DNA from: Bacillota bacterium
Lineage (GTDB): Bacteria; Bacillota; Clostridia; Christensenellales; UBA1242
DNA: 64,000 nt
Assembly: GCA_009784185.1 (NCBI GenBank)
Contig: WRCD01000002.1
Coordinates: 62,001-126,000 of the forward strand
Direction of reading: 5' to 3'
Part shown: positions 16,520 through 59,799 of the stretch, one piece after another
How the letters are laid out: each line of letters begins with the position of its first letter
How positions within the stretch are numbered: the first letter of the stretch is position 1
Translations under genes and position numbers: made by a program
The notes under the pieces: generated by a model
What the model saw: only the letters and a program-made list of their open reading frames with translations
Database searches by the model: none
Told to the model about the DNA's origin: nothing

Positions 16520-16831
16520 CTGATATTATTTAGTTGTGGTGTGGTTGACTATTGGTTTGCAAAAAATTTAATTGTAATTTACTCTCCAAATCGTTTTAGC
16601 CGAGCGGAGCAAATGCTTGTTTTTATACGGCATTTTTTTGTGTTTTACAGTGTCATTGCGAGCAATTCTATTCCGGATTCCAACGAAGCAATCCCCCGGT
16701 TAGAAGTTCAATCCATCTTGCAAAGACAAAATCTTTACCACCAAGCCACAGCCCCATGGTATCAAAATTAATTACATATGGCAACTAAATTTTAGCAAGT
16801 TTTAAAAATAAATATTTTTAGGAGAGTATCA
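16520..16831 (+). promoter_or_regulatory. Long rpoB leader with an R3 copy and a possible attenuator
   Basis: The leader has no credible gene; the ORF at 16484-16771 begins within the promoter. AAATGC (about 16610) can pair with GCATTT followed by a T run (to about 16638), like a weak terminator. An R3 element (16652-16697) and an AT-rich segment up to the SD (AGGAG) follow. Whether it attenuates rpoBC is unknown. Confidence 0.4.
16652..16697. repeat. R3 half element
   Basis: TGTCATTGCGAG...CGAAGCAATCCC. About 45 bp is nearly identical to the copy at 27232-27276, including the interior TTCTATTCCGGATTC. Confidence 0.85.
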
Positions 16832-19800
16832 ATGCCTGCAGCTCAAACAAAACCAGCACCTGCGTTTAAAAAGATTAAATGCGGAAGCAAAACCGAGAGA
16901 TTAAGTTTTGCCAGAATTCAGGAGCCGATTGAGGTTCCGTACTTGATTGCAATTCAGAAGGATGCCTACAAACGCTTTTTAGAAGAGGGAATTGGGCAGA
17001 CCATTAAGGAATTTTCTCCCATAGAGGACTTCAGCGGAAAGGCTGAGCTTCACTTTTTAGACTACCGGTTGGACGGTGCCCCCAAGTACGACATTCAGGA
17101 ATGCCGCAGAAGGGGACTTACTTACTCGGTGCCTATTAAAGTAAGCGCACGGCTTATTAATAAAGAAACCGGTGAAGCAATTGACCAAAACGTGTTTTTG
17201 GGTGATGTACCTCTTATGACCGAAGAAGGTTCCTTTCTTATTTCAGGTGTAGACAGAGTTATCGTCAGCCAGATTGTGCGCAGCCCAGGTGTTTATTACG
17301 AGCTTTTAGACGACAAAAACACAGGCAAGCAAACTTATAAAAACACATTAATTCCAACCCGCGGCACCTGGCTGGAGTTTGAACAGACTCAGCTTGACAC
17401 CATGCGTGTAATTATTGACCGCGGCGTTAAGGTTTCGGTTGGTTTATTATTAAAGGCGTTTGGTCTTGGCGAAGAGGCCGAGATTAACAAGCTGTTTAAC
17501 AACCACCCGATGATTGCTGAAACCTTGAAAAAAGAAACTCAGAAAACGCAGGAAGATGCTTTAATTGAACTCTCTAAAAAGCTTAAGCCAAGCGAGCTGC
17601 CCAGTGCTGAGGCAATAAAAACATATATCAACAATCTATTTTTTACCGAGCTAAGATACGACCTGGCGCGTGTAGGCAGATACAAATTTGACAAAAAGCT
17701 GAATTTGTCTACCCGGTTAATAGATAAAACTTTGGCCGAGGACTTAAAACTGGCTGACGGTACTGTGCTTAAGTCCGGAGTTGAGTTAACTCGTGAGCAG
17801 GCAAAAGCCATACAGAACAGCGGCATAAACCGTGTTGTAATAGAACTGGACAGCGGCAAAAAGCACCTGATGATTGGAAATAACCGTGTTGCACTTGACG
17901 CTATTATTAAATGCGACCCTAAAGAGCTGGGTGTACTGGAGCAGGTTTATTATCCGGCATTGCTTGAGCTGTTTAAAGGGCAGAAGACAAATGCTGCCAA
18001 ACTTGAAGTTATAAAGACCAATGCCGCCAAACTGATTAACCGCAGCGTAACTTTAGACGACATTATTGCAAGTATCAGTTACTTATTAGACCTTAGCGAG
18101 GGAATTGGCGAAACCGACAACATTGACCATCTTGCCAACCGCAGAATAAGTACTGTTGGCGAGCTTATGAGCATTGCGCTTCATAGCGGAATGGCTAAGC
18201 TTGCTACTTTAGCTCGTGAAAGTATGCAGGGCCAGGATTTGACAACCGCCAGCCCGACAAGCATTATAAACGCGCGTCCGATTAATAAAGCAATTATGGA
18301 CTTTATGAAAAGCTCGCAGCTGTCTCAAAACATGGACCAGGTTAACCCGCTTAGCGAGCTTACGCAAAAGAGAAAGGTTTCCGCTGTTGGCCCGCGCGGT
18401 GTGCGCAAAGAACGTGCCGGCGAAGAAGTGCGTGACATACATTACACTCATTACGGCAGGCTATGTGCTATTGAAACACCTGAAGGTCAATCAATCGGAC
18501 TTATAAATACTCTTGCTACATACGCAAGGGTTAACGAATACGGATTTTTAGAGGCTCCTTACCGCAGGGTGGACAAAAACACAGGTAAGGTTACCGATAC
18601 CGTAGACTACCTTATGGCAGACGTTGAGGAGACTTACAAGATTGCCGAGGCCACCGAGGTGCTTGACAGTGAAGGCAGATTTGACCACGAAAACATTGTT
18701 TGCAGATATAAGGACAGATTTATTGAGGTAAACAAAAAACAAGTTGATTACATTGACGTTAGTCCACGTCAGTTTATTTCTGCTGCAACCAGTTTAATTC
18801 CGTTTTTAGAGAACGACGACACCCCGCGTGCGCTTATGGGCGCTAACATGCAGCGTCAGGCTGTTCCGCTGTTGCGTACCGAGGCTCCCATTGTGGGCAC
18901 AGGGTATGAGCACCTTATTGCCAGAGACAGCGGCGCAGTGGTGCTGGCTAAAAATGACGGTGAAGTAAAATATGTTGATGCTAACGAAATTATAGTAAAA
19001 ACGGCTGCCGGTGAAGACAAATATAAGTTGCTGAAGTTTAACAAGACCACAAAAGACACCTGTCTTAACCAGAAACCGATTGTTAAGGCCGGCGAAAAAG
19101 TTAAGGCGGGAGACTCTATAATTGACGGGTTCTCAACCAAAGACGGTGAGCTTGCCTTAGGTAAAAACATGCTGGTTGCGTTTATGAACTGGGAAGGCTA
19201 CAACTACGAGGACGCAATTTTGATTAGTGAGCGCCTGGTTAAAGATGATGTTTACACTTCTATCACGCTGCGCGTTGAAGAGCAAAAAAGCCGAAGCACA
19301 AAACTTGGTAACGAAGAGATTACAAGAGATATTCCAAACTTAAGTGACGATGCTCTTAAAAACCTGGACGAAGACGGAATTGTCAGAATTGGTGCCGAGG
19401 TTCGCCCCGGTGATATTTTGGTAGGTAAGGTCACTCCCAAAGGAGAAACCGAGCTTACGCCCGAAGAAAGGCTGCTTAGAGCCATATTCGGCGAAAAAGC
19501 AAGAGAAGTTAGGGACACCAGTCTCCGCGTTCAGCACGGACGCGGCGGTGTGGTTGTTGACGTTCAGGTATTCAGCCGGGCTAATAAGGACGAGCTTGAA
19601 GCAGGCGTAAACCAGCTTGTTAAGGTATATGTTGCTCAAAAGCGTAAGCTTAGCGTGGGTGACAAAATGGCAGGCCGTCACGGAAACAAGGGTATTGTGT
19701 CACGTGTGCTGCCGGTAGAGGATATGCCGTTTATGGCAAACGGACAGCCGGTTGATATCGTTCTTAACCCGCTGGGTATACCAAGCCGTATGAACGTAGG

Positions 19801-20545
19801 GCAGATGCTGGAGTGTCATTTGGGGCTTGTGGCAAAAACTCTTGGCTGGAAGGTAGCCACTCCGGTTTTTGACGGAGCAAACGAGCGGCTTATTCAGGAA
19901 CTGTATAAAGAAAACAGTATGCCGCTTGACGGAAAGATGCAGCTCTTTGATGGGCGTACGGGTGAGGCGTTTGAAAACCGCGTTACGGTTGGATACAAAT
20001 ATATGCTTAAGCTTGACCATATGGTAGACAGCAAAATGCACGCAAGAAGCACCGGACCGTATGCGCTGGTTACCGCTCAGCCGCTTGGCGGAAAGGCCAT
20101 GTTTGGCGGACAGAAGTTTGGTGAAATGGACGTATGGGCGCTTGAAGCGTATGGCGCAGCAAGCTTGCTGCAGGAAATGCTTACGGTTAAGAGTGACGAC
20201 ATTGCGGGCAGAACAAAAGTATACGAAAGTATTGTTAAGGGTCAGCCGATTGCCGAACCGGGCATACCCGAGAGCTTTAAGGTATTGATAAAAGAATTGC
20301 AGAGCCTGGGGCTGGATATGAGGATTTTAACCGAAGACAGCCGCGAAATTGCAATTACCGAGCTGACTAACGATGAGGTTGATATAATAATACCTCAGGG
20401 CAGACGAGAGACAAAAGAAAAAGACTTAGACTTAGACTTTACAGCGGCTACGGAAAGCAATGACATTGTAAGCAAAGATGAATACGAAGCAGAGCAAGCG
20501 GACGCGTTTAGCGCGGGCAACCTGTTTGATGACTTTGATGAATAG
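16832..20545 (+). CDS. rpoB: RNA polymerase beta subunit
   Basis: The 1237-aa protein has the usual length and domain order of RpoB: protrusion and lobe regions, fork loop and rifampicin region ([42 protein letters not shown]), the flap, [12 protein letters not shown] and the C-terminal clamp. It forms the catalytic core with RpoC. The rifampicin region reads as wild type (QNMDQ in place of QFMDQ, S and H/K positions typical). An SD (GGAG, about 10 nt before ATG) is present. rplJ-rplL, normally just upstream, are missing. Instead a consensus promoter and a long leader precede it. Confidence 0.98.
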
Positions 20546-24290: not shown

Positions 24291-25367
24291 ATGAAGTTTA
24301 AGCGGGACTATTATAATCCGGAGGATTCCGGAATCGGGTTTGTTGCCGGGGTGGTTGCACCTCAGATTATTATATTTGCCTTAGGAATAATTCTTGTTAT
24401 TGTGGCTGCAATTGCCGGCGTAACTTACAACGAAATTATTACCACCGCACCGGCATTGTTTATTAGTGCGGCACTTGCCGAACTCAGCTTTTATTTTGTA
24501 TATTTAATTATTACAAAAGCCCGCAGAATAAACGGCGTAAAAGCCGCGTGGCTTAATAAAGGCGTAAATTTCAAAACCGTTGCGGTGCTGATTTGTCTTG
24601 GTGCGGCCATGACCGTGCTATTTTCTCCGATAATCGGAATACTGGATTATGTTATTTCGCTGACGGGTTATGAGTTAGCGGGCTTAAATCTTCCGCTTGA
24701 TAATTTTGGATATTATCTGCTGGCCGTTTTGCTTATGGCTGCGCTTCCTGCTTTCTGTGAGGAATTTCTCTTTAGGGGAATTATTTTAAACGGCTTGCGC
24801 AAATACGGAATGTGGGCAAGCGTGCTTATAAGTGCGCTATGTTTTATGCTGATGCACGGAAACATTCAGCAGACTGCATACACGTTTTTTCTGGGCATAA
24901 TGCTTGGGTATGTGGTATACAAAACCCGCAGCTTGTGGGCGGGAATTATATTGCACTTTGTAAACAACTTTATTGTTATTACCTTTATGTATTTGCACGA
25001 AATTGGCGTGCTGGAAGCTGAAGTTATGACTTCTGTCAGTTGGGCAGATGCGGGCTATGCGGTTGGGGCAATGATTATTGGTGCCGGAGCGGTTTGGCTT
25101 GCGGTATGGCTGATTAAAAAATGGAACACACCATCCGTCACTGCGAGTGTCTCTGGAGACGGATTCAAACGAAGCAGTCCCATGGATAAAACTTCTGCCG
25201 AGGGGATTGCTTCGCCTGAAGATGTCTCGGGTGAGTCTCGCAATGACAGAGTGCCGCTAAAAGACTTGTTTAAATCCCCGTTTACGGTGCTGATGTTTGC
25301 GGCAGGTCTTGCTATAGGTTTGGCGCTTTGGTTATATAACTTTATATATAAAGCATTTATTATTTAG
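24291..25367 (+). CDS. CPBP (CAAX/Abi) intramembrane protease with an in-frame R3 insertion
   Basis: This 358-aa multi-pass membrane protein of the CPBP/Abi family has motif 1 FCEEFLFRG (EExxxR), motif 2 MLMHGN and motif 3 HFVNNF. These carry the Glu and His residues of this glutamic-type intramembrane protease family. Roles range from prenyl-protein processing to bacteriocin self-immunity; the substrate here is unknown. Residues about 282-320 are a full R3 palindrome (25136-25249) translated in frame in the cytosolic stretch between the last two helices. The final helix (VLMFAAGLAIGLALWLY) is retained. Transcription is probably leaderless. A paralogous CPBP gene follows. Confidence 0.88.
   Translation: MKFKRDYYNPEDSGIGFVAGVVAPQIIIFALGIILVIVAAIAGVTYNEIITTAPALFISAALAELSFYFVYLIITKARRINGVKAAWLNKGVNFKTVAVLICLGAAMTVLFSPIIGILDYVISLTGYELAGLNLPLDNFGYYLLAVLLMAALPAFCEEFLFRGIILNGLRKYGMWASVLISALCFMLMHGNIQQTAYTFFLGIMLGYVVYKTRSLWAGIILHFVNNFIVITFMYLHEIGVLEAEVMTSVSWADAGYAVGAMIIGAGAVWLAVWLIKKWNTPSVTASVSGDGFKRSSPMDKTSAEGIASPEDVSGESRNDRVPLKDLFKSPFTVLMFAAGLAIGLALWLYNFIYKAFII
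25136..25249. repeat. R3 full palindrome inside a CDS
   Basis: CGTCACTGCGAG...CGAAGCAGTCCC, then GGGGATTGCTTCG...GTCTCGCAATGACAG. The outer arms are inverted and about 114 bp apart. It is translated without stop as a Ser/Asp/Arg-rich segment. Confidence 0.9.
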
Positions 25368-25382
25368 GAGAGCAGAAAGCAA

Positions 25383-25490
25383 AATTCCCCTTTGCTCCGC
25401 TAAGGGGTGGCAGGCGAAGCCTGACGGGGTAGTTGCTTGCGTTATCACATACCCCGCCCTTCGGGCACCCCTTTATCTTAAAGGGGAATT
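25383..25490. repeat. R1 full palindrome (about 108 bp)
   Basis: AATTCCCCTTTGCTCCGCTAAGGGG... and ...CACCCCTTTATCTTAAAGGGGAATT are inverted. It separates the two CPBP genes. The stems differ in sequence from 12042 but keep the pairing. Confidence 0.9.
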
Positions 25491-25511
25491 AATTACAACA
25501 CAGGAGTTAAC

Positions 25512-26717
25512 TTGGAAAACAACACCACAAAACAACCGTTAATAAAAAACAAACTGCTATTTTACACGGGGCTGGCTTATTTTATTATTCTGCTGCTGTT
25601 TATTGGTCTCAGGGTGGCGTTTTTACTTATTGACTTTGGTGATATGCCGCTTGTATGGAAGGACAGGCTGTTTACAATCTGCACTCAGATAATAATTATG
25701 GGTGCTGTACCCGTATTGCTTATATGGTGGTTCACCAGACCAACAAAGCAGGAATTTGTAAAAAGATTTTCGCTTAATACCGTAAACTGGCAATCCATAT
25801 TATATACAATAGCTCTGGGTGTTTGTTTTTACTTTCTGACTATTGCAATTTCCAGTTTCTTTAACGGAATTATAGGTATGCTGGGCTATGCGCCGCCGGA
25901 GCCGGTTAAGGCAGATGTAACTGAGTCGCCGGCAGTCTATTTTTTGCTGGCGGTGCTGTTTACCGCAATTCTGCCGGGCATATTTGAGGAGGTTTCGCAC
26001 CGCGGAATGCTGCTTGGCGGGTTAAAAAGCCAGGGCAGTAACCTGCGTGCCGTAATACTCTGCGGATTGCTGTTTGGACTTATGCACTTAAACATAACGC
26101 AGTTTTTCTATACTGCAATTATCGGTATGCTGCTGGCTCAGCTTACCATAATTACTAAGAGCATAATCCCCGCTATTATCATACATATTGTAAGCAACTT
26201 TCTGGGCACGTATTTTTCACACGCAGACAAAAACGATTGGTGGCTGGGCGGCTTTTACGATTCAATAAACGGCTTTTTTGCCAGCAACAACGTTTTTGTG
26301 GTATTTATAGCAGTGTTTTTAATAATGTCACTTATTGTTTTTGTAATTCTGGGATTATTTATAAGGCTGTTTATTGAGCGCGGAAACAAAGACTTTAAAG
26401 ATTTTGTTAAAAAGTTTAAAGCCAAAATGCAAGCCGACGGGCAGGCGGATGGAATTGACTTTAACAACCAGGCGTTAATGCTAAGCTATTACCGTCAGGT
26501 ACAATTATTAAAACGGCAGTCGGAAGCACAGGCAAACGGCATGACCGATAGCGAATATGGCGCATATTTAAAAAAGCACGGTATGCTGAATGTAATGCTG
26601 GCGGATGAGCGGGTGAGCATGGCTAAACCTTCGTTTTGGGAGAACTTCTTTTTTTACGCTTCAATTACGCTTGGGGTAATTGTAACCATATTTACATTTG
26701 TTTGGGGAGTATTGTAA
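25512..26717 (+). CDS. CPBP intramembrane protease 2
   Basis: The 401-aa protein starts at TTG 25512 (SD CAGGAG, 7 nt before). It has about eight membrane helices. The CPBP motifs are FEEVSHRGML (EExxxR), GLMHLN and IIHIVSNFLG. A long cytosolic segment with charged and Tyr/Gln-rich sequence (about residues 295-375) precedes a final membrane helix. The substrate is unknown. Its stop codon directly abuts the rlmH ATG (TAAATG), so the two are likely co-translated. Confidence 0.88.
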   Translation: MENNTTKQPLIKNKLLFYTGLAYFIILLLFIGLRVAFLLIDFGDMPLVWKDRLFTICTQIIIMGAVPVLLIWWFTRPTKQEFVKRFSLNTVNWQSILYTIALGVCFYFLTIAISSFFNGIIGMLGYAPPEPVKADVTESPAVYFLLAVLFTAILPGIFEEVSHRGMLLGGLKSQGSNLRAVILCGLLFGLMHLNITQFFYTAIIGMLLAQLTIITKSIIPAIIIHIVSNFLGTYFSHADKNDWWLGGFYDSINGFFASNNVFVVFIAVFLIMSLIVFVILGLFIRLFIERGNKDFKDFVKKFKAKMQADGQADGIDFNNQALMLSYYRQVQLLKRQSEAQANGMTDSEYGAYLKKHGMLNVMLADERVSMAKPSFWENFFFYASITLGVIVTIFTFVWGVL

Positions 26718-27231: not shown

Positions 27232-27276
27232 TGTCATTGCGAGCATTTCTATTCCGGATTCAAACGAAGCAATCCG
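27232..27276. repeat. R3 half element
   Basis: TGTCATTGCGAGCATTTCTATTCC...CGAAGCAATCC, almost identical to 16652-16697. The rest of this 272-nt gap (27277-27433) holds GC-rich imperfect repeats (GGCCGCGGC AAGGCCGCGACTAGCC) and no gene. Confidence 0.85.
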
Positions 27277-27433
27277 CTGGACAGAAGTCAAGAGTTGTAG
27301 GTGCACAAAGCAAAATTACCCAATTCCTTCGGGGCGGAAAGACGGAGTAACAGCGGTCAAAGAAGAGTCCGTGCTGTTGGCCGCGGCAAGGCCGCGACTA
27401 GCCGCTTGGCGTTAGCCGAGCGCAAAAAACAAG

Positions 27434-27445: not shown

Positions 27446-28426
27446 ATGTTTTGTATGAAACACAACCAGTTAGAGCAACAGATTTTAGAGTTCAAAAACT
27501 CCGGCATCAAAGTGTTCAGCATCGGTAAGTCTGTGCTGGGAAGAAACATCTGGTGCGTGGCGGTGGGGAGCGGTGAGCCAAGTGTCATCATTCAATATGC
27601 TATTCACGCCAGGGAGTACATAACTGCTTATTTGGCGATAGAGCATATCAAACTTTCGTTTGGCTACCCCGTCTGTCTCGCTGGCGCAAAATCTAACCAT
27701 TGCCATTGCGAGACGGCACCAATAATTCCCCTCTTGAGAGGGGTGGCACGAAGTGACGGGGTGTGTTTAGCGAAGCAATCCCTTGGGTTGGGTGCAATTT
27801 ACTTTATCCCATGTGCTAATCCCGATGGAGTTGCTCTTGCGCTGGATGGAGGAAGTGACTTCAGCCTATGGAAGGCAAATGCAAATGCTGTTGACCTTAA
27901 CCGCAACTTTGATGCCAAATGGGGACAGGGTACGGACAATAAGTTTGAACCAGCCTCAGAAAACTATATTGGCAAACACGCTCATAGCGAGCCGGAGACC
28001 AGGGCACTGGCGGAATTTACCTTAAAAGTAAAACCCAAACTTACAATCAGTTATCACTCCAAAGGAGAGGAAATATATTACGAGTTCGGACAAACAGGCG
28101 TTCGCCTGGAGCGGGATAGGAAAATAGCGGAAGCTATATCCGGCATAACCGGCTATACAATTAAATCCACGCCCGGCAATACCGGAGGCTATAAAGACTG
28201 GTGTATGCAAAAATTAAAAATCCCCGCCTTGACAATTGAAGTTGGTAATGATATTCTTAACCACCCGATAGGAGTGGAACACCTGCCGGAAATTTTAGCC
28301 CAAAACAAAAATGTGCCGGCAAAGGCACTGGATATTGCAAATAAAATTCCCCTCCTTGGAGGGGTGCCCAAAGGGCGGGGTGGTTTAAAAAGGAGAAAGC
28401 AATGGAAAACGAGAAAGCATTATTAA
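27446..28426 (+). CDS. M14 zinc carboxypeptidase with in-frame nested repeats
   Basis: The 326-aa protein has the M14 fold. HAREYI supplies the first two zinc ligands (His, Glu), CANPDG and VDLNRNFD are typical substrate-site strands, SYHSKGEEIYYE supplies the third His, and TIEVG carries the catalytic Glu. There is no signal peptide. Residues about 72-114 are foreign to the fold. They are an R3 element split by an R1 arm (27704-27782), translated in frame. The last ~25 residues (after ANKIPLLGG) come from another R1 arm (28345), so the C-terminus has been rewritten by the repeat and runs 25 nt into the next gene. Activity is uncertain because the insert sits between core strands. Confidence 0.85.
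   Translation: MFCMKHNQLEQQILEFKNSGIKVFSIGKSVLGRNIWCVAVGSGEPSVIIQYAIHAREYITAYLAIEHIKLSFGYPVCLAGAKSNHCHCETAPIIPLLRGVARSDGVCLAKQSLGLGAIYFIPCANPDGVALALDGGSDFSLWKANANAVDLNRNFDAKWGQGTDNKFEPASENYIGKHAHSEPETRALAEFTLKVKPKLTISYHSKGEEIYYEFGQTGVRLERDRKIAEAISGITGYTIKSTPGNTGGYKDWCMQKLKIPALTIEVGNDILNHPIGVEHLPEILAQNKNVPAKALDIANKIPLLGGVPKGRGGLKRRKQWKTRKHY
27704..27782. repeat. R3 element interrupted by an R1 arm, inside a CDS
   Basis: CATTGCGAG (27704-27712), then an R1 arm AATTCCCCTCTTGAGAGGGG...GGGGTGTG (27723-27765), then CGAAGCAATCCC (27771-27782). The nested order implies R1 entered an existing R3. Confidence 0.85.
28345..28385. repeat. R1 single arm at the end of the M14 gene
   Basis: AATTCCCCTCCTTGGAGGGGTGCCCAAAGGGCGGGGTGG. 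It encodes the C-terminal tail of the M14 protein and lies just before the SD of the DUF3788 gene. Confidence 0.85.
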
Positions 28427-36066: not shown

Positions 36067-36561
36067 TTGCTGTATACAACTCTTGGGCAGGGGTATGTTT
36101 TTCTGGCGCTTTTAGCATTGGGTGCGGGGGCAAGTTTAGCCTGCCGTCCGCTTTTGCTATATGTCAAATTAAAATTCCCCTCAGGGCCGGACAAAAAACA
36201 TACAGATACGAGAGCTGTCATTGCGAGCCTGGCTAGCGGAGCCAACAAACGAAGCAATCTTCAATATAGTACTCATTTATTTAAAAAAGGGCTTGTTTTT
36301 ACTGTGGACCTACTGGTCTGCCTGTTTTTTGCAGGCGTGTTCTGGTTTGGGCTTTTGCTTTTTCATTTTGGGGAGTTCAGGCTTTTTTGTTTGCTGGGGT
36401 TTTTAACCGGAATTTTACTGGAAAAACTATTGCTGGCAAAAACAGTTGATTTTTTATTATTAAAAGCGTATACTCTGCTGGCTAAGATAGTTTTAAGATT
36501 GAGGTCTAAGCTATGCAGAAAACCAAAACCAAAACAGGATTTAAACTCGGCAAAACAATGA
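36067..36561 (+). CDS. yabQ: Spore cortex protein YabQ with an in-frame repeat
   Basis: The 164-aa membrane protein starts at a TTG right after the yabP stop and is probably translationally coupled. The helix layout (one N-terminal helix, then three: FTVDLLVCLFFAGVFW, LFCLLGFLTGILLEKLL and a C-terminal amphipathic segment) and its genomic place identify YabQ. Residues about 36-66 are an R1 fragment plus an R3 half (36172-36261), read in frame in the loop after helix 1. The helices are intact, so function may persist. It overlaps divIC by 49 nt. Confidence 0.85.
   Translation: MLYTTLGQGYVFLALLALGAGASLACRPLLLYVKLKFPSGPDKKHTDTRAVIASLASGANKRSNLQYSTHLFKKGLVFTVDLLVCLFFAGVFWFGLLLFHFGEFRLFCLLGFLTGILLEKLLLAKTVDFLLLKAYTLLAKIVLRLRSKLCRKPKPKQDLNSAKQ
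36172..36261. repeat. R1 fragment plus R3 half inside yabQ
   Basis: AATTCCCCTCAGGGCC (about 36173) followed by TGTCATTGCGAG (36216-36227) and CGAAGCAATCT (36250-36260). The translation VIASLASG...KRSN has no stop. Confidence 0.8.
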
Positions 36562-39380: not shown

Positions 39381-39417
39381 AAAAACTCTTACAATCTAAA
39401 TTGTAGGAGTTTTTGTT
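39381..39417 (+). promoter_or_regulatory. Hairpin sequestering the RAYT SD
   Basis: AAAAACTCTTACAAT and ATTGTAGGAGTTTTT pair over 15 bp with one T-G wobble and a CTAA loop. The SD (AGGAG) lies inside the 3' strand, 10 nt before ATG 39419. This resembles the translational repression of IS200-type transposases. Confidence 0.75.
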
Positions 39418-39418
39418 T

Positions 39419-40186
39419 ATGCCAAGGAAAGCAAGAAAAGATACAGATGGAAAGTTTTTCCATGTAATGGTGCAGGGGATTGGTAAAGAATATATTTTTC
39501 CTGATGACGATTGCAAAGGCTATTATCTATCCTGTTTGAAGAAAAGTAAAACCAAGCTTCCCGCTAAAATACTTGCTTATTGCGTGATGGGCAACCATGC
39601 GCATGTTTTGGTGAGTGTTCAAAATGCGCAGGAGCTAGCTTTGTTTTTAAGGCAAGCAAACGGAGATTACGCCAGATATTATAACAACACTCGCAACAGG
39701 GTGGGCTACGTGTTTAGAGACAGGTATCGGAGCGAAGTGATTCAAGATGAGCGATATTTAATACATTGTGTGGCATACATACACAACAACCCGTTAAAGG
39801 CGGGGTTGGTGGAACGTGCAGAAAACTATAAATATTCAAGCTATGTTAATTACTTAACCAAGAAGGGCATGGTAGATTTTGATGAGGCGGCTAAGTTGTT
39901 TGATACAAGTGAGAGAAGCATGAGAGCTATCATGTTGGAAAAAACCGGAGCGAACTGGCTGGAGCATGACGACAAAGAATATGAAGACAAACACAAAGTA
40001 TTGACTGAATTAATAAAAAAGTATAATATATCGTCAAAGGCATCGGTTAGAAACGAAGAACTTGCTAAGGCGCTGACTATGGAGTTGCAAGAGAGAAGCG
40101 GTGTCAGTTTGCGGGAAGTCGCAATATTATTGGAGGTTAGCCGAGAATGGTTAAGAAGAGTTGTGTCAACACCCCCGTCCCCCTGA
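39419..40186 (+). CDS. REP-associated tyrosine transposase (RAYT, Y1/IS200-like)
   Basis: The 255-aa single-strand DNA transposase-like protein has the HUH motif in VMGNHAHVLV, preceded by FFHVMVQG and followed by FLRQANGDYARYYN, RVGYVFRDRYRS and YIHNNPLKAGLVER. These are typical of RAYT/TnpA-REP proteins. The C-terminal ~70 residues add a helix-turn-helix (SLREVAILLEVSREWLRRV). The gene is bracketed by inverted REP-like ends, and its last codons (STPPSP) are read from the right end. ATG 39419 follows an SD in a hairpin. RAYTs process REP DNA and are usually single-copy and domesticated. Confidence 0.92.
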   Translation: MPRKARKDTDGKFFHVMVQGIGKEYIFPDDDCKGYYLSCLKKSKTKLPAKILAYCVMGNHAHVLVSVQNAQELALFLRQANGDYARYYNNTRNRVGYVFRDRYRSEVIQDERYLIHCVAYIHNNPLKAGLVERAENYKYSSYVNYLTKKGMVDFDEAAKLFDTSERSMRAIMLEKTGANWLEHDDKEYEDKHKVLTELIKKYNISSKASVRNEELAKALTMELQERSGVSLREVAILLEVSREWLRRVVSTPPSP

Positions 40187-40260
40187 CCATCCCCGTGACC
40201 ACCCCCGTCCCCCTGACCATCCCCCTGACCACCCCCGTCCCCCTGACCATCCCCCTGACC
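40162..40260. repeat. Right REP end expanded as 30-bp tandem repeats
   Basis: TTGTGTCAACACCCCCGTCCCC leads into nearly three units of CCCTGACCATCCCCCTGACCACCCCCGTCC (30 bp). The strand is almost free of G. The units read in frame into the next ORF as PVPLTIPLTT. Confidence 0.9.
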
Positions 40261-40713
40261 ATGGACAAAAAAGAGTTTTTCAGAATTACGCAGGAAGTCT
40301 TTGCTGAATATGGGTTTAAGGTGGATGGGAAGTATTTTTATTTAGATTTGTCAGAGGTTCATATTACTGCAGTCCTTGCAAAAGCACATGGCATTTATTT
40401 CTTGGGGTATAATTTTAGTATTAAAGCAATACATGAAGGGGAAATTAAGCCTAGAGACGAATTTGCCGGACACGACAGTCACTTGATAAACATGAGCAAT
40501 TATAAAAATGAACGGTGGCTTGAATATGAAAACATGCCAAAAGAGACGTACATTAATGACCTAAAAGAAATGCTTCCAAGATATTTTAATCCGTACAAAA
40601 AAGATGCTATAGGTTACATTAAAAAAATTGCTGTTATACCGGGCGTTATTTACAAAAAAGACATAGTGGTAATCTTCAAAGAAGCGCAGGCATATTTAGG
40701 AATCAAGTATTAA
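40261..40713 (+). CDS. Unknown 150-aa protein (DUF4304-like?)
   Basis: The track start 40147 lies in the transposase gene and translates the tandem repeat. ATG 40261 gives MDKKEFFRITQEVFAEYGFKVDGKYFYLDL, which resembles the N-terminus of small DUF4304-type proteins. It has no signal or membrane helix. No SD is visible because the upstream is C-rich repeat. Coupling to RAYT translation through the repeat cannot be excluded. Confidence 0.6.
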   Translation: MDKKEFFRITQEVFAEYGFKVDGKYFYLDLSEVHITAVLAKAHGIYFLGYNFSIKAIHEGEIKPRDEFAGHDSHLINMSNYKNERWLEYENMPKETYINDLKEMLPRYFNPYKKDAIGYIKKIAVIPGVIYKKDIVVIFKEAQAYLGIKY

Positions 40714-50773: not shown

Positions 50774-53332
50774 ATGCAGCAATATGTAAACAAACCAATA
50801 AGTATTGCGGGGGTAGTTGCCTTTTTGTTTGCATTAATTGTAACGCCGCTTATGGTGTTTTTTGTAGGTAATACTTTAGCAAACGAAGGCATATGGGACG
50901 GCAGCATAGCAAGCAGTTTTGCGGGTGGCAACGGGACTTCTGCCAACCCTTACCTTATAAGCAACGGGGCGCAGCTTGCATATTTAGCACAGGTGGTAAA
51001 CGCAAACACTAACGATACAGCTAACGGCGGTAGATTTAATCAGTCCAGCAAGCATTATGCGCTTACAAGAAGCATTGCTTTAAATAATGCGGCCGGGTGG
51101 CAGGGCTGGAACGCAACAACTACAGGCTTAAATCAATGGACACCGATTGGGGGCAATGGCTTTTGGGCAAACTTGGATGGCAGAAATAATGTAATCACCG
51201 GCCTGTTTATCGGCAGCAGTCCATTTCAAGCGGGGTTGTTTGGGGATTTAAGAGGAAGTGTTTCCAATCTGGGCGTAAAACAAAGTTTTGTGAGCGGCAG
51301 TACGGTCGGAATGATTGCAGCACGGAACGAGGGCGTAATAAACAATTGCTACAATGAAGGCACAGTTGCCGGCGGTCACTCAGGCGGAATTGTAGGAAGT
51401 AATCAGAACGGTGGTTCTGCGGGAAGAATAAATAATTGTTATAACAAAGGAACCGTAACATCAGACGGCGTGAGCGGTGGTATTGTGGCGCAAGGCGGAG
51501 AAGTGTTAAATAGTTATAATACCGGCAATGTAACGGCAACGCCAATAATCATCTCATATGTCGGTGGAATTTCAGGCGGCGTGACAAATGTGTTAAATTG
51601 TTACAACACAGGAACTATAACAGCAGATGGATATGCCGGCGGCATTTTGGGGTATACTGGTCAGGGGAGCTATATAGTAAATAGTTACAACACAGGAAAT
51701 ATTATTGCCGCCCCACGCCCTGACCAACCATTCGTTGGTGCTACTGCGGGCGGAATTGTTGGCTCTATGAGTTCTTCCACAAGTGCCGCAAGCATGGTGT
51801 TGAATTGCTACAACAGCGGCACAATAACCGCAAACACCAACGGGACCAGAATGGCAGGCGGAATTGCCGGCGTGGTATTTGTAGGGACTTCTTTTTCTAA
51901 CATTATAGCAAACTCCTACAACACAGGCGCAATAACCGGCACGGGCACCGGCACAGCCCAGCTTGGAGGGCTGATAGGCAGAAACGATGACGGGCAAGCG
52001 CTGGATTACGGATATTGGCTTAACACAACTGCCGCTGCCGCAATTGGAAACAGCACTACAAGCGGGGCATATACGTTTAACTCAACAGGCGGCGGACTGA
52101 GCGTAACAATTGGCGGAGCAGTGCGGACCACCTTGCTTTCTGCATTAAATGCCTATACAAACAGTCCAAGCCAAACAGCTCCGGCCGGCACATATTATGC
52201 AAAATGGATTAACCAAGTGTATCCGAAACTGGTGCCATGGCTGGGACAAGGCACTCAGCTTGACCCGTATTTAATATCCAATAAAGGCCAGCTGGAATTC
52301 TTTAGAGATGTAATAAACAGTAATATTTCGGACCCCAACGGCGGAATGTATAACAGTAACACCAAGTTCTACGCCATGACCAACGATATTTACTTAAACG
52401 ACACAACCGGCTGGGAAAGCTGGGGTAATTCAACAGCCGGACTTAGTGCGTGGACGCCAATCGGCACCGACACAAACCGATTTACCGCCAATTTTGACGG
52501 TAAAGGCTTTGCAGTATCCGGCATATGGATGTATTTAAACGCGGCTTCTTCTGCAGGAGGGCTTTTCGGGTATGTAAATAATGCCAATATACTTAACACC
52601 GGCGTAGAAAAAAGCTATATAAGTGTTGGCGGCAGCGGAAGCGGGGCTGGTGGTATTGCGGCTCATTCGTTTGGTACTACTACAATATCCGGTTGTTACA
52701 ACAGAGGTACAATAATTGGCTCCAATCCTGCCGGAGGAATAATAGGTGCCGCAAACAATTCAACAATAGTTAATACCTGCTACAATACAGGCCTAATAAC
52801 CGGCACCGGCGGAACCGGGAGTTATACCGGCGGAATAGTTGGTAATCTTGCAAATTCTGCTCAAATTACCAACTGTTACAACACCGGCCTGATTACCGCC
52901 AACGCAACCAATGCAGGCGGCATAGTAGGTTTAAACAACTCCACAGTTGGAGTATCCAACTGCTACAATACCGGCACGGTAACCGGCACTGGCACTAATA
53001 TAGGCGGACTTGTGGGCGACAGCCGAGGGCCTTTAGCCAGCAGCTATAATGTTGGTGCCATAACCGGCACCGCTACCAACCGCGGCGGTGTAGCAGGAAT
53101 ACGCCCAAGCGGTACCATATCAAACTGCTATTACAGTTCAACTGCGTTTAGCGGGTCTCAGATTGGTAACGTGACCGGAACCACCGGCGCACTTACAATG
53201 AGCCAGATGCTGGCAACCGATACGCTGACATTATACATGGTTAACATGGGCAATGCGTGGGCGAAAAGGATTAATACTGCTACACAATCGTATTATCCGG
53301 AGCTTAAGGTATTTGCAACAGACTTAACTTAA
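50774..53332 (+). CDS. GLUG-repeat surface protein 1
   Basis: The 852-aa protein has an N-terminal hydrophobic helix (residues about 10-35, AGVVAFLFALIVTPLMVFFVG) that acts as signal or anchor. The exposed region is built of many degenerate repeats like GGIVG...NCYNTGTITA, the GLUG motif pattern of surface adhesins, in two blocks. Each block opens with a GxGTxxxPYLISxxxQL segment. No LPXTG, SLH or other anchor is visible at the C-terminus. It is a paralogue of the 57550 gene with the same N- and C-terminal sequences (NAWAKR...SYYPELKVFATDL). SD AAGGGGAAAGG. Confidence 0.85.
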   Translation: MQQYVNKPISIAGVVAFLFALIVTPLMVFFVGNTLANEGIWDGSIASSFAGGNGTSANPYLISNGAQLAYLAQVVNANTNDTANGGRFNQSSKHYALTRSIALNNAAGWQGWNATTTGLNQWTPIGGNGFWANLDGRNNVITGLFIGSSPFQAGLFGDLRGSVSNLGVKQSFVSGSTVGMIAARNEGVINNCYNEGTVAGGHSGGIVGSNQNGGSAGRINNCYNKGTVTSDGVSGGIVAQGGEVLNSYNTGNVTATPIIISYVGGISGGVTNVLNCYNTGTITADGYAGGILGYTGQGSYIVNSYNTGNIIAAPRPDQPFVGATAGGIVGSMSSSTSAASMVLNCYNSGTITANTNGTRMAGGIAGVVFVGTSFSNIIANSYNTGAITGTGTGTAQLGGLIGRNDDGQALDYGYWLNTTAAAAIGNSTTSGAYTFNSTGGGLSVTIGGAVRTTLLSALNAYTNSPSQTAPAGTYYAKWINQVYPKLVPWLGQGTQLDPYLISNKGQLEFFRDVINSNISDPNGGMYNSNTKFYAMTNDIYLNDTTGWESWGNSTAGLSAWTPIGTDTNRFTANFDGKGFAVSGIWMYLNAASSAGGLFGYVNNANILNTGVEKSYISVGGSGSGAGGIAAHSFGTTTISGCYNRGTIIGSNPAGGIIGAANNSTIVNTCYNTGLITGTGGTGSYTGGIVGNLANSAQITNCYNTGLITANATNAGGIVGLNNSTVGVSNCYNTGTVTGTGTNIGGLVGDSRGPLASSYNVGAITGTATNRGGVAGIRPSGTISNCYYSSTAFSGSQIGNVTGTTGALTMSQMLATDTLTLYMVNMGNAWAKRINTATQSYYPELKVFATDLT

Positions 53333-56253: not shown

Positions 56254-56287
56254 TTGCGTCGATTTAAGCGCATCGTAAAATTAACAT
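56254..56287 (+). promoter_or_regulatory. Leaderless promoter of the 56288 gene
   Basis: TTGCGT (56254-56259), a 16-nt spacer, TAAAAT (56276-56281), 6 nt, ATG 56288. Confidence 0.6.
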
Positions 56288-57493
56288 ATGGATATCCGCA
56301 GAATTTTTCTTGTGCCAAACGCTCATAAGCGCTCGGCGGAGTTTTTATTTAATATGTTTCCGTACGGGCGCTGTCTTTTTTTAACAAGCGGTAAAACACG
56401 TGTGCTGGCCGGACCGTTTGCCTGGCAGATGCAAAAGATTGGTTTGCGGCCCGATGAGCTTAACATAACGGGCAGCTTAAGCAGCTTTGATACCGTAAAC
56501 GAAATAGTGGTCTGTGAAAACACACGTGCCATAATTGCATTTGGCACATCAGAACTTTTTAATCTGGCAAAAATGACAGCCCGCGAAAAAAAACTGCCGC
56601 TGATTTTAATTGCGGCGGCTCCGGTAGATGCCAACGTTTTTTGTCCGCACTCTGTATTGATAAAAGACGGGATTGTTGGGGTGTTTGACTCCGCTGCGCC
56701 GGCAGCACTGTTTTATGACGCTCAGCTGGCGGGCTTAACAAACGCAGAAGAGCTGCTGGATGCCGCAATGGGCGTGATAAGTAAAGCCATGCTGTGCTTA
56801 GATAGCAACTGTCATTGCGAGTTGCACCCGAAACTCCTTCAAGCGAAGCAATCCCCTGGGTTGGAAGCACCAATTTCTCGGATTGCTTCGTCTGCAGGCT
56901 TTGCCGGCCAGGCTCGCAATGACAAGGATTTACTCCACGAAATTAGCGGCATTCTTTCTCTGCTGAACAGCAACTGTATAGACAAAGTGTTGTTAACCGA
57001 AAAGATGCTGATATGTGCATATTACGCCTCTGAAATAAATTCAATGTCGCCTGCCGGGCAAATGATGCTGGCATATCTGCAGATAAAGCAAAAGCCCATA
57101 CAAAACCCGGGGCAGACAGAATTGATGTGTGCACGTCTGCTGACCGGTTTGTTTTTATCATACTTAAACAAATGCGATAACATAATAAATATGTGTGATA
57201 TAAAAAAAAGAATAATGCTTACGCAGGTGTTTTTGTCCGAAGAACAAACTGACAAGATGCTGGCAGCTATGCTGGGGGCGGAACAACTTAAAACCGAAAT
57301 TATTAAAGAACGTTTCCTGCTTATTAAAAAGCTTGAAGAAATAAAAGCAATTTTAAACAGCGTTCCCATGCCGGGACAGATGACTATTACAAAGCCTGAA
57401 CTTGAAGCCATGCTTAGCCTTGCCCCGGAGATGACAAATGGAAACAACTTGCTGGTGCTTTTAAGGAATGAAGGACTGCTGGATTTTATTTGA
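56288..57493 (+). CDS. Glycerol-1-phosphate dehydrogenase-like protein with an in-frame R3 insertion
   Basis: The 401-aa protein resembles the dehydroquinate synthase/iron-alcohol dehydrogenase fold. RAIIAFGTSELFNLAKMTAREKKLPLILIAAAPVDAN occupies the place of the GGG nucleotide loop and the PTT motif, but the glycines are degraded. The downstream metal-binding His residues are not clear. Residues about 174-212 are a full R3 palindrome (56810-56924) read in frame (CHCE...KQSPG...RIASSAG...ARND). Probably a diverged, possibly non-catalytic homologue. Leaderless start. The next GLUG gene's promoter overlaps its 3' end. Confidence 0.55.
   Translation: MDIRRIFLVPNAHKRSAEFLFNMFPYGRCLFLTSGKTRVLAGPFAWQMQKIGLRPDELNITGSLSSFDTVNEIVVCENTRAIIAFGTSELFNLAKMTAREKKLPLILIAAAPVDANVFCPHSVLIKDGIVGVFDSAAPAALFYDAQLAGLTNAEELLDAAMGVISKAMLCLDSNCHCELHPKLLQAKQSPGLEAPISRIASSAGFAGQARNDKDLLHEISGILSLLNSNCIDKVLLTEKMLICAYYASEINSMSPAGQMMLAYLQIKQKPIQNPGQTELMCARLLTGLFLSYLNKCDNIINMCDIKKRIMLTQVFLSEEQTDKMLAAMLGAEQLKTEIIKERFLLIKKLEEIKAILNSVPMPGQMTITKPELEAMLSLAPEMTNGNNLLVLLRNEGLLDFI
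56810..56924. repeat. R3 full palindrome inside a CDS
   Basis: TGTCATTGCGAG...CGAAGCAATCCCC, then CGGATTGCTTCG...GGCTCGCAATGACA. It is about 115 bp long and translated in a different frame from the 25136 copy. Confidence 0.9.
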
Positions 57494-57519
57494 CACTAAG
57501 CCCATAAAAATGCTAAACT
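57490..57519 (+). promoter_or_regulatory. Promoter of GLUG surface protein 2
   Basis: TTGACA (57490-57495), an 18-nt spacer and TG-C-TAAACT (57514-57519). It overlaps the stop of the preceding gene and matches the 50714 promoter. Confidence 0.8.
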
Positions 57520-57549
57520 AAATTAAACTAAAGACAAGGGGAAAGGCGT

Positions 57550-59799
57550 ATGCAGCAATACATAAACAAACCGATTGGTTTTGCAGGCATAATAGCTTTC
57601 TTTTTTGTATTGGTAGCAACGCCGCTAATGGTCTGGGTTACCAGTACAACTTTGGCAGCTTCTCCTATCTGGAACGGCACCATTGCCGGTTCATACGCCA
57701 GCGGTTCAGGGACACAAACCGACCCGTGGAAGATTACAACAGCCGAACAGTTGGCGCGCCTGGCGCAAGAAACAAATGCAAACAGCAACAATACCAGTGC
57801 CCACTATTACGAACTTACGCAAGACATACGCTTAAATGACGCCACGCTCGGCGGCGGATGGCAAAACTGGAACAACTATGCCAACGAAGGCGCTGCAGCA
57901 TCCGCAGGCATACGTGCATGGACACCAATTGGTGACGGTCATCATGATGTCAATCACACACGCTCATTCAGGGCTAATTTTGACGGCAAGGGCTTTGCTG
58001 TATACGGCGTGTATTTACATAAAAACACCACGGACGGCAACTTAACCGGTCAAGCGGCTTGTGGTGGCTTGTTTGGTGTAATAGGTGCAAGCAGCCCCGG
58101 TCATGTTCGCAATTTGGGTGTAAAATCAAGTAATATCCGTACCGGTGTTAGTTTTGATGCAGCACAGGGTGAAATTCCAGGGGCCGTTGCATCGGTTATT
58201 ATGAATGGCAGCAGCCTTACCAACTGTTATGTCGAAAATGTTAAAGTGGTGGGCGGAGCCGGTGGAGCCGGAGGTCTTGTAGGCCAGATAGTTGGTGGTA
58301 TGGGTTCTCCATACAACATGTCTGCCGCTTGGGTCTACAACTGCTACAGTATGAACGCAATAGTAACGATGCAGGGGAGTTTTGTCTCCCCCACAGCTAC
58401 ATTAGGCGGTATTGCTGCCACTGTCGGAGGCAGTCTAATAAACAGTTACAGCGTAGGTGAAACACTGACCGGCAGCGGCACTCAGCGTAGGGGTAGTGTT
58501 GCCGGCAATATATCGGGTTTGGCGGCGTTTCCTGCAAGTATAAGCCGCTGTTACTCCGCATCAGGTTCCGGATACCCGGCAGTGCATACAATTGGAACCA
58601 ATGCTACGGCTACGACGGATACCTTTAATACATCCGGCAACATAACAACCAACAACAACGGCTACAATGGTCAGACCCTTCGCACAGCCCTTAACACATG
58701 GAAAAACAACCCAACCGTTGGTGTGGCTGCAAACTACAGTCAATGGTATAGTACCCCATATCCAACGTTTACAATAACAGGTGCAAGTTTTGCGGGTGGT
58801 ACAGGTACGCAACAAAGTCCGTATCTGATATCCACAAAAGCGCAGTTGGAGGACTTCAGAGATGTAATTAACAACAATATTGCAGACACCGTAAATAGCG
58901 GTAATTTTAACTCCAACACTAAATTTTACGCCATGACCAACGATATTTATTTAAACGACACCACAGGCTGGCAGAGTTGGAATGCAACAACCACGGGCTT
59001 GTACGAATGGGCGCCGATTGGCAGAGATGTTTCAGGTCAGCGGTTTGTAGCCAACTTTGACGGCAGAATGAATGCTGTGTTTGGTATGTTTGTAGTTTCA
59101 GGTGAGCATGTAGGATTGTTTGGGTATGCTAGTGGCGGGGGCAGTATAACAAATACTGGAGTCAAGCACGGTTTTGTGCTGGGCGCAGGTTATGCGGCAG
59201 GAATTGTAGGACATGTTAGTTTTCCAATAACAAATTGTTATAATACAGGTGTTAATATAGCAACACGTACCTTTACAACGCATACAGGCGGAATAGTAGG
59301 ATACACCGGCTATGCTGTTTCAAACTGCTATAATACAGCAAACATAACAGGAAGCGGAAGCATCGGGAGTTTTCAGTATTTAGGCGGGATAGCAGGTTAT
59401 TCCGGAGGGCCGATTACGGATTGTTTTAATGTCGGAGCTGTAGCTGGTAGCCCACAATCATTAGGCGGAGCAGGCGGAATAGTAGGCTACGGTTACTCTG
59501 TGGAAAGATGCTACAATGTAGGAAGTGTTACAGGAGCAGTTGACGGAATAGGCGGCATAGTAGGTTTAAGTATGGGTCCAATGAATGTTATAAGTTGTTA
59601 CTACAACTCAATCGCATTCAGCGGTCCTCAAATCGGTGACAAGGTTGGTAACACCGGTGCACTTACAACGAGTCAGATGCTGATAACCGGCACGCTGGAT
59701 ATGTACATGACCGGTATGGGCAATGCGTGGGCGAAAAGGACGAATGATGCTACACAGTCGTATTATCCGGAGCTTAAGGTATTTGCCACAGACTTATAA
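57550..59799 (+). CDS. GLUG-repeat surface protein 2
   Basis: The 749-aa paralogue of the 50774 protein has the same start (MQQYxNKPI), a helix of about residues 10-35, and an SD in AAGGGGAAAGG. The PYLISTKAQLEDFRDVINNNI block and the terminal NAWAKRTNDATQSYYPELKVFATDL are shared. In between are GLUG-type repeats (GGIVGYTGYAVSNCYNTANITG and similar), fewer than in copy 1. It is exported by prediction and probably involved in adhesion or envelope structure. A terminator follows. Confidence 0.85.
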   Translation: MQQYINKPIGFAGIIAFFFVLVATPLMVWVTSTTLAASPIWNGTIAGSYASGSGTQTDPWKITTAEQLARLAQETNANSNNTSAHYYELTQDIRLNDATLGGGWQNWNNYANEGAAASAGIRAWTPIGDGHHDVNHTRSFRANFDGKGFAVYGVYLHKNTTDGNLTGQAACGGLFGVIGASSPGHVRNLGVKSSNIRTGVSFDAAQGEIPGAVASVIMNGSSLTNCYVENVKVVGGAGGAGGLVGQIVGGMGSPYNMSAAWVYNCYSMNAIVTMQGSFVSPTATLGGIAATVGGSLINSYSVGETLTGSGTQRRGSVAGNISGLAAFPASISRCYSASGSGYPAVHTIGTNATATTDTFNTSGNITTNNNGYNGQTLRTALNTWKNNPTVGVAANYSQWYSTPYPTFTITGASFAGGTGTQQSPYLISTKAQLEDFRDVINNNIADTVNSGNFNSNTKFYAMTNDIYLNDTTGWQSWNATTTGLYEWAPIGRDVSGQRFVANFDGRMNAVFGMFVVSGEHVGLFGYASGGGSITNTGVKHGFVLGAGYAAGIVGHVSFPITNCYNTGVNIATRTFTTHTGGIVGYTGYAVSNCYNTANITGSGSIGSFQYLGGIAGYSGGPITDCFNVGAVAGSPQSLGGAGGIVGYGYSVERCYNVGSVTGAVDGIGGIVGLSMGPMNVISCYYNSIAFSGPQIGDKVGNTGALTTSQMLITGTLDMYMTGMGNAWAKRTNDATQSYYPELKVFATDL

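Follow-up and report, generated by a model that had tools for sequence, protein, structure and literature searches.

An in-frame palindromic repeat in a CPBP protease gene and in housekeeping genes of a Bacillota genome with endospore genes

The CPBP intramembrane protease gene shown here carries, within its open reading frame, a complete copy of R3, a palindromic repeat that is present throughout the genome of its host. The window, the whole stretch of DNA analysed here, comprises 64,000 nucleotides of contig WRCD01000002.1 from a Bacillota bacterium of the order Christensenellales. R3 is best placed among the protein-coding palindromic elements, a known kind that is seen here in a new lineage; its lineage-specific expansion is genuine, and the range of essential genes that it has entered is unusually broad. 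The best explanation, which we hold with high confidence, is that R3 is a small non-autonomous mobile DNA element which has recently multiplied and of which the frame-keeping copies have been retained.

In-frame palindromes are known chiefly from Rickettsia and Wolbachia, which are obligate intracellular bacteria. With R3 the habit is seen in a small-genome lineage with endospore genes (Spo0A and spore genes are present), at a high load and in essential enzymes. It becomes testable, outside obligate intracellular bacteria, whether such peptides are neutral passengers or raw material from which new parts of proteins arise, and what moves the palindromes. For annotators there is a warning, as segments of the type VIAS/CHCE/SLRD...NEAIP in bacterial proteins are repeat-derived.

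The R3 copy in the CPBP protease gene

The gene and its insert are made up of the following features, given in window coordinates.

24291..25367, plus strand: CPBP/Rce1-like intramembrane protease gene of 358 amino acids (PF02517, E 5.1e-23, at residues 142-228), carrying R3 in frame
25136..25248, no strand assigned: complete R3 palindrome, an inverted dimer of 113 bp, translated as VTASVSGDGFKRSSPMDKTSAEGIASPEDVSGESRND, residues 282-320 of the protease
25136..25193, plus strand: left R3 unit, 58 bp, from the half-unit models; CGTCACTGCGAG ... CGAAGCAGTCCC ... ATAAAACT
25191..25248, minus strand: right R3 unit, from the half-unit models; TGTCATTGCGAG ... CGAAGCAATCCC ... GCAGAAGT

The initial annotation had described a complete palindrome translated without a stop as about 39 residues in the cytosolic stretch before the last helix, and this description holds. 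The reading frame is intact in the ORF call, the element runs from the third position of codon 282 to the first position of codon 320 without a stop, and it lies in a linker of cytosolic type before the last helix. The start assigned to it, 25136, was also correct, but its end is at 25248 rather than 25249, which makes it 113 bp long, one base less than the 114 bp given before. This length cannot be divided by three, and the frame of the protease is restored by the length of the flanks and not by that of the element. As DNA, this copy is a single hairpin of -27 kcal/mol (z -5.3 compared to shuffles). A covariance model derived from 13 copies in this genome, the CPBP copy itself among them, matches it with 98.3 bits (E 1.3e-23). 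When it was used as the sole BLAST query, 46 other segments of the genome matched at E <= 1e-3, a count that includes both strands of the palindrome.

CPBP orthologues of the same family and order, from about 28 other genera, were aligned with the protein as the initial annotation had proposed, and neither R3 DNA nor a similar peptide was seen in them at the position of the linker. R3 DNA is present in none of the 29 related loci, which have unrelated linkers at this place, hypervariable in both length and composition. Orthologues from distant genera that carry the same segment but lack the DNA repeat were not found. Two CPBP protease genes are adjacent in the window (24291-26717), as they are in most members of the family (relatives L032-L060).

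Anatomy and copy number of R3

R3 is a unit found either alone or as an inverted pair, the latter forming the palindrome of about 113 bp. The unit of about 58 bp consists of TGTCATTGCGAG, some 22 variable bases, CGAAGCAATCCC and a short tail with an AGAAGT end. Thirteen full copies can be aligned over 112-115 bp; the middle parts vary among them, with hardly any variation in the outer arms (TGTCATTGCGAG/CTCGCAATGACA) or in the inner ones (CGAAGCAATCCC/GGGATTGCTTCG). Many copies are single units that end at AGAAGT, where the centre of the palindrome would fall. Within one unit only ATTGC and GCAAT can pair, around some 30 bases; the long hairpin is formed by unit with unit. The arms are conserved as sequence with almost no compensatory change, which suits an element acting at the level of DNA rather than RNA. 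A structured RNA was considered and rejected, as an Rfam search with R3 gave no described family at E <= 1 and covariation is almost absent.

The genome of 1.16 Mb contains about 66 copies of R3, of which 22 are inverted dimers (about 113 bp) and 44 are single units (about 58 bp). These were counted with a half-unit model and from the stretches around its matches, at scores above 20 bits; the 66 do not include copies that are broken or very weak, that of the M14 peptidase gene being an example. The window contains these further copies.

16651..16707, plus strand: single unit outside long ORFs, upstream of a 1237-aa ORF (16832-20545)
27232..27288, plus strand: single unit outside long ORFs, from the half-unit model
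27701..27790, plus strand: degraded single unit, interrupted in its middle by a nested R1 repeat and in frame within an M14 peptidase gene, 27446-28426 (PF00246, E 5.6e-34)
36216..36273, plus strand: single unit in frame in a yabQ-like ORF, 36067-36558, register V-I-A-S (Spore_YabQ 22.5 bits, cut-off 27)
56810..56924, no strand assigned: full R3 of 115 bp in frame in ORF 56285-57490, register C-H-C-E; no family match

Genes and registers of the in-frame copies

In-frame copies number 26 of the 66 and are distributed over 22 genes with intact reading frames; the degraded copy in the M14 peptidase gene is additional to these. The genes that could be named by Pfam or NCBIfam encode the CPBP protease, ValRS, LeuRS, MutL, MnmA, MnmE, MurD, PcrA, RbgA/YlqF, RsmE, TruB, a calcium-type P-ATPase, NrdG2, FeoB, a MacB-like ABC transporter, a GNAT enzyme, a HAAS/DUF4097 protein, and YtxC-like, YabQ-like and Gate-domain proteins. 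The family matches of the last three are weak, and that of YabQ is below the curated cut-off. Two further ORFs with R3 have no convincing family. MnmA, MnmE and the calcium-type P-ATPase contain two in-frame copies each.

A scan of other proteins for R3 segments, suggested in the initial annotation, has found them in frame in more than 20. That annotation had already listed three genes besides the protease. Entry of R3 into yabQ is confirmed, with the family match below cut-off, as is its entry into the M14 peptidase gene, where a single degraded unit has a second repeat nested within it. The gene called dehydrogenase-like, ORF 56285-57490, does contain a full in-frame R3, but neither Pfam nor NCBIfam has a family that would justify calling it so. 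Two reading frames had been recognised; there are more, since the arm can be read in six ways, of which at least five are translated (conceptually): VIAS, CHCE, SLRD and, on the reverse strand, GIAS...RND and LAMT/LAKT. In the outer arm five of six registers are open and one meets TGA. For the individual registers, 38-73% of single units and 26-63% of full palindromes are open. The peptides of different registers are unrelated, which argues against one selected peptide. In mnmE (L282:1994-2124) two units are in frame and divergent, with 15 bp between their tagged ends, which face one another, an arrangement opposite to that of the usual dimer.

The positions of several inserts can be defined by comparison with relatives. 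In ValRS the R3 segment is missing in 14 of 14 aligned relatives, which have 41-49% identity. In these proteins the KPxL helix leads directly to the next helix; here GVSLRDAPDTTSNEAIPRA stands between the two, in a loop of the anticodon domain, with a net gain of 17-18 residues. The insert adds about 51 bp, which is shorter than the 58-bp unit, indicating that some target sequence was lost or trimmed. When solved homologues are used as the guide, R3 falls between B. subtilis residues 228 and 233 in RbgA, at two loops in MnmA, between the NKxD and SAL motifs of the G domain in MnmE, in the N-terminal domain of MurD, and between residues 107 and 110 in PcrA. In MutL it is in the interdomain linker. 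The inserts in ValRS, RbgA, MnmA, MnmE, MurD and PcrA are placed, by alignment to solved homologues, at what appear to be fold-compatible loops or linkers between conserved segments. The inserts of TruB and the Gate protein and the second one of the P-ATPase are close to the C-terminus, where R3 may extend the protein instead of forming a loop within it.

Recent copying and the mode of movement

R3 has been copied recently. Copies within genes are no more diverged than the remaining copies: the mean score of single units is 46.7 bits in genes compared to 41.7 bits for the others, and that of dimers is 97.3 compared to 89.8 bits. Three loci, including one in pcrA, share an almost identical 72-bp composite that starts with TGTCATTGCGCG, and the adjoining R3 arms are diverged; the near-identity of these loci points to recent movement.

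The sequence of events would be as follows. R3 would have multiplied recently in the host lineage, with a trans-acting enzyme moving it as DNA. Copies would land both in and between genes, and those that break the frame of a needed gene would be lost. Frame-keeping copies in exposed loops or linkers would survive, the linker of the CPBP protease being one such site, and would presumably be translated as about 18-20 extra residues from a single unit or about 38 from a dimer. Movement as DNA in trans, with selection keeping the in-frame copies located in loops, is the most likely course. Against a mobile element, no target-site duplication of the kind that marks a MITE was recognised by eye in the flanks of R3 copies, no transposase is linked to R3, and the insert in ValRS is shorter than a whole unit.

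The main rival is the spread of R3 by ectopic recombination or by template switching between palindromes at replication, which deserves serious consideration even though we judge it unlikely. Such events would explain the exchange of arms, the nested repeats and the missing target duplications. Arms have indeed been swapped, since the 72-bp left part is almost the same at three loci and the right parts attached to it are diverged, and R1 repeats are nested within R3. However, the units have constant end points in unrelated flanks, TGTC on the outside and AGAAGT at the centre, which argues for a defined mobile unit, and genes without a prior repeat would need an entry step. A mobile element acted on in trans is preferred.

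Distribution of the unit in other genomes

The exact unit was defined as TCATTGCGAG-N(12-36)-GAAGCAATC. It occurs 54 times in the host genome versus none in 397 other sampled genomes of the phylum. Among 58 other genomes of the family, two have it (4 and 1 copies), and members of the family have looser relatives of the unit at a few places. The unit is common in other phyla and is present in MAGs from many of them; when public genomes were scanned, at least 111 stretches with the unit were revealed, from Chloroflexi, Patescibacteria, Omnitrophota, Hydrogenedentota, Nitrospirae and others. The 19 genomes counted among the matches listed have 3 to 129 units each, and a reversed control of the unit had no match in these 19. 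The unit is also present on viral contigs. Carriage by plasmids was considered and set aside, as the PLSDB plasmids gave no match to the R3 consensus. The R3 unit is pan-bacterial, and the host genome stands apart from the rest of its phylum. R3 may plausibly have arrived laterally.

The TCATTGCGAG-N-GAAGCAATC repeats of many uncultured phyla resemble R3 in their constant arms, their variable middle and their tens of copies per genome. They differ from R3 in that, among the genomes listed, the middle is often a hairpin of its own. They differ also in that, by a mechanical test that makes no use of homology, only 13 of 85 scorable copies in the genomes listed are in a long ORF. It has also been considered that these repeats and R3 are one pan-bacterial palindrome family passed between phyla, which in this host has become a recent and general inserter of peptides (it would have changed more than 20 proteins, two essential tRNA synthetases among them), some of these peptides being functional. 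Taken as a whole, this is highly improbable.

Retention of copies in reading frames

In the mechanical test 21 of 66 R3 copies are well inside ORFs, compared to 55% of random windows. A deficit of this kind is expected if frame-breaking insertions were removed. By a rough reckoning, about 20% of copies would be expected in ORFs if frame-breakers are purged and about one fifth of insertions stay open; with 21 of 66 found, in-frame copies are not obviously selected against. In-frame copies at or above this neutral-plus-purging expectation, rough as it is, would also suit positive selection, in which the element supplies exposed linkers or loops and its peptides are functional in some proteins, and so would the two copies each in MnmA, MnmE and the P-type ATPase. 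We consider such selection highly improbable, as at least five registers give unrelated peptides, the target proteins are unrelated to one another, the segment is missing in orthologues, and in-gene copies have no excess conservation beyond the small difference in score. Purging of frame-breaking copies from a mobile element, with peptides that are probably near-neutral, is the preferred reading.

There is hardly any chance that the insertions are artefacts of assembly or binning: the assembly is fragmented (19 contigs), but R3 copies are within single ORFs of which both sides align to the same homologue, they differ among themselves, and contamination is 0.43%. That the CPBP segment is an ordinary protease linker resembling the repeat by chance is refuted for practical purposes; orthologue linkers at the same place are similar or greater in length, but the DNA matches a genome-wide repeat (98 bits, E 1e-23) present at unrelated loci, between genes and in other registers, and no orthologue has the segment.

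Relation to known palindromic elements

RPE-4, RPE-6 and RPE-7 have ATGAC motifs, and their in-frame copies occupy exposed sites of tRNA synthetases and of DNA repair proteins (PMC3767692). RPE palindromes of about 100-150 bp occur between genes and, in frame, in those for IleRS, PheRS, DNA polymerase III, DNA helicase and excinuclease (PMC3767692). R3 is like RPE-4, RPE-6 and RPE-7 (eRPE-4) in having both intergenic copies and in-frame copies in housekeeping genes, and in its end, CTCGCAATGACA (AATGAC); of the sequence, only the ATGAC end is known to be common to both (PMC3767692). tRNA synthetases and helicases are target classes of both. R3 has many palindromic copies per genome, as RPE-like elements do, and its in-frame copies are missing in ValRS and CPBP orthologues. 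Rickettsia is an obligate intracellular alphaproteobacterium, whereas the R3 host belongs to a lineage with endospore genes, and RPE sites are orthologous among Rickettsia species, whereas R3 inserts are missing in relatives. The Rickettsia elements, named as the closest precedent in the initial annotation, are an apt one with respect to RPE-4/6/7, but not the sole one, since in-frame palindromes are also present in Opitutus, Thauera, Xanthomonas and others (PMC3733652). A 2024 review described the in-frame habit of RPEs as unusually frequent and noted that it may occur elsewhere (PMC10969869).

CGTC REPs have stems of 8-9 bp and loops of 4-5 bp, are mostly HH dimers, and are found in Proteobacteria, Chlorobi, Bacteroidetes, Spirochaetes and Thermotogae; CGTC-1 and CGTC-4 of R. 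conorii are RPE-6 and RPE-4 (PMC3733652). R3 resembles this super-family in its YGTC tag followed by AT, its CC-rich end and its occurrence as singles and inverted dimers. The outer end is YGTCATTGC in the alignment, with a CGTC (often TGTC) tag and a stem starting with AT. Both are mostly intergenic with some copies in frame, and no dedicated transposase has been found (PMC3733652). R3 differs in its unit of about 58 bp, its variable middle and its pairs with the tagged ends outside, and it does not have an 8-9-bp stem with a 4-5-bp loop. R3 fits the protein-coding palindromic elements and not the published stem-loop anatomy of CGTC REPs. In a literature search that extended to few subscription journals, in-frame palindromes in endospore formers were not found, and searches by R3 letters or peptides gave chance primer matches only.

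The RAYT gene and other repeats

The remaining features are a transposase gene and a second repeat family.

39413..40186, plus strand: Y1/RAYT-type transposase gene, the only one in the genome (PF01797, E 9e-11), with GTGTCAACACCCCCGTCCCC repeats, not R3, in its flanks
L100:2285-2365 (valS) and window positions 4877, 5327, 7007, 12037, 12136, 24227, 27718, 29662 and 48358: R1 repeats

The RAYT/GTAG REP system is like R3 in its small palindromes, present as singles and inverted pairs, and there is a RAYT-type gene in the window; unlike R3, the repeat that bounds this gene is GTGTCAACACCCCCGTCCCC. RAYT was rejected as the mover of R3, as the flanks of the only Y1_Tnp gene in the genome contain this different repeat. 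The gene is bounded by GGGGACGGAGGTGTTGACAC / GTGTCAACACCCCCGTCCCC, and tandem CCCCGTCCCCCTGACC repeats follow it (40147-40276) and extend into the next ORF.

The R1 family (AATTCCCCT...AGGGGTG..., often with a GGGGTGTG tail) is more abundant than R3 and is nested in R3 copies. Like R3, it has in-frame copies, in ValRS, RsmE, RbgA and the M14 peptidase; in ValRS it forms a second insert, AATTCCCCTTCCTCGAAGGGGTG..., about 100 residues before that of R3. A 72-bp segment, TGTCATTGCGCGTTGGAGCGAAGCGAACAACCATGGTTGACGGGCAT[A/G]CAGTGACGGATACAATTGTAGGG, replaces an R3 arm at L079:749-848, L088:7147-7252 and L291:1998-2135, and is a younger element of the same style. Long diverged direct repeats at 51805-53326 and 57484-59796 have 78% identity over 174-201 bp and are 6.5-6.8 kb apart. 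They contain repeated SYNxGxIxG-like codons and probably encode related surface-type proteins.
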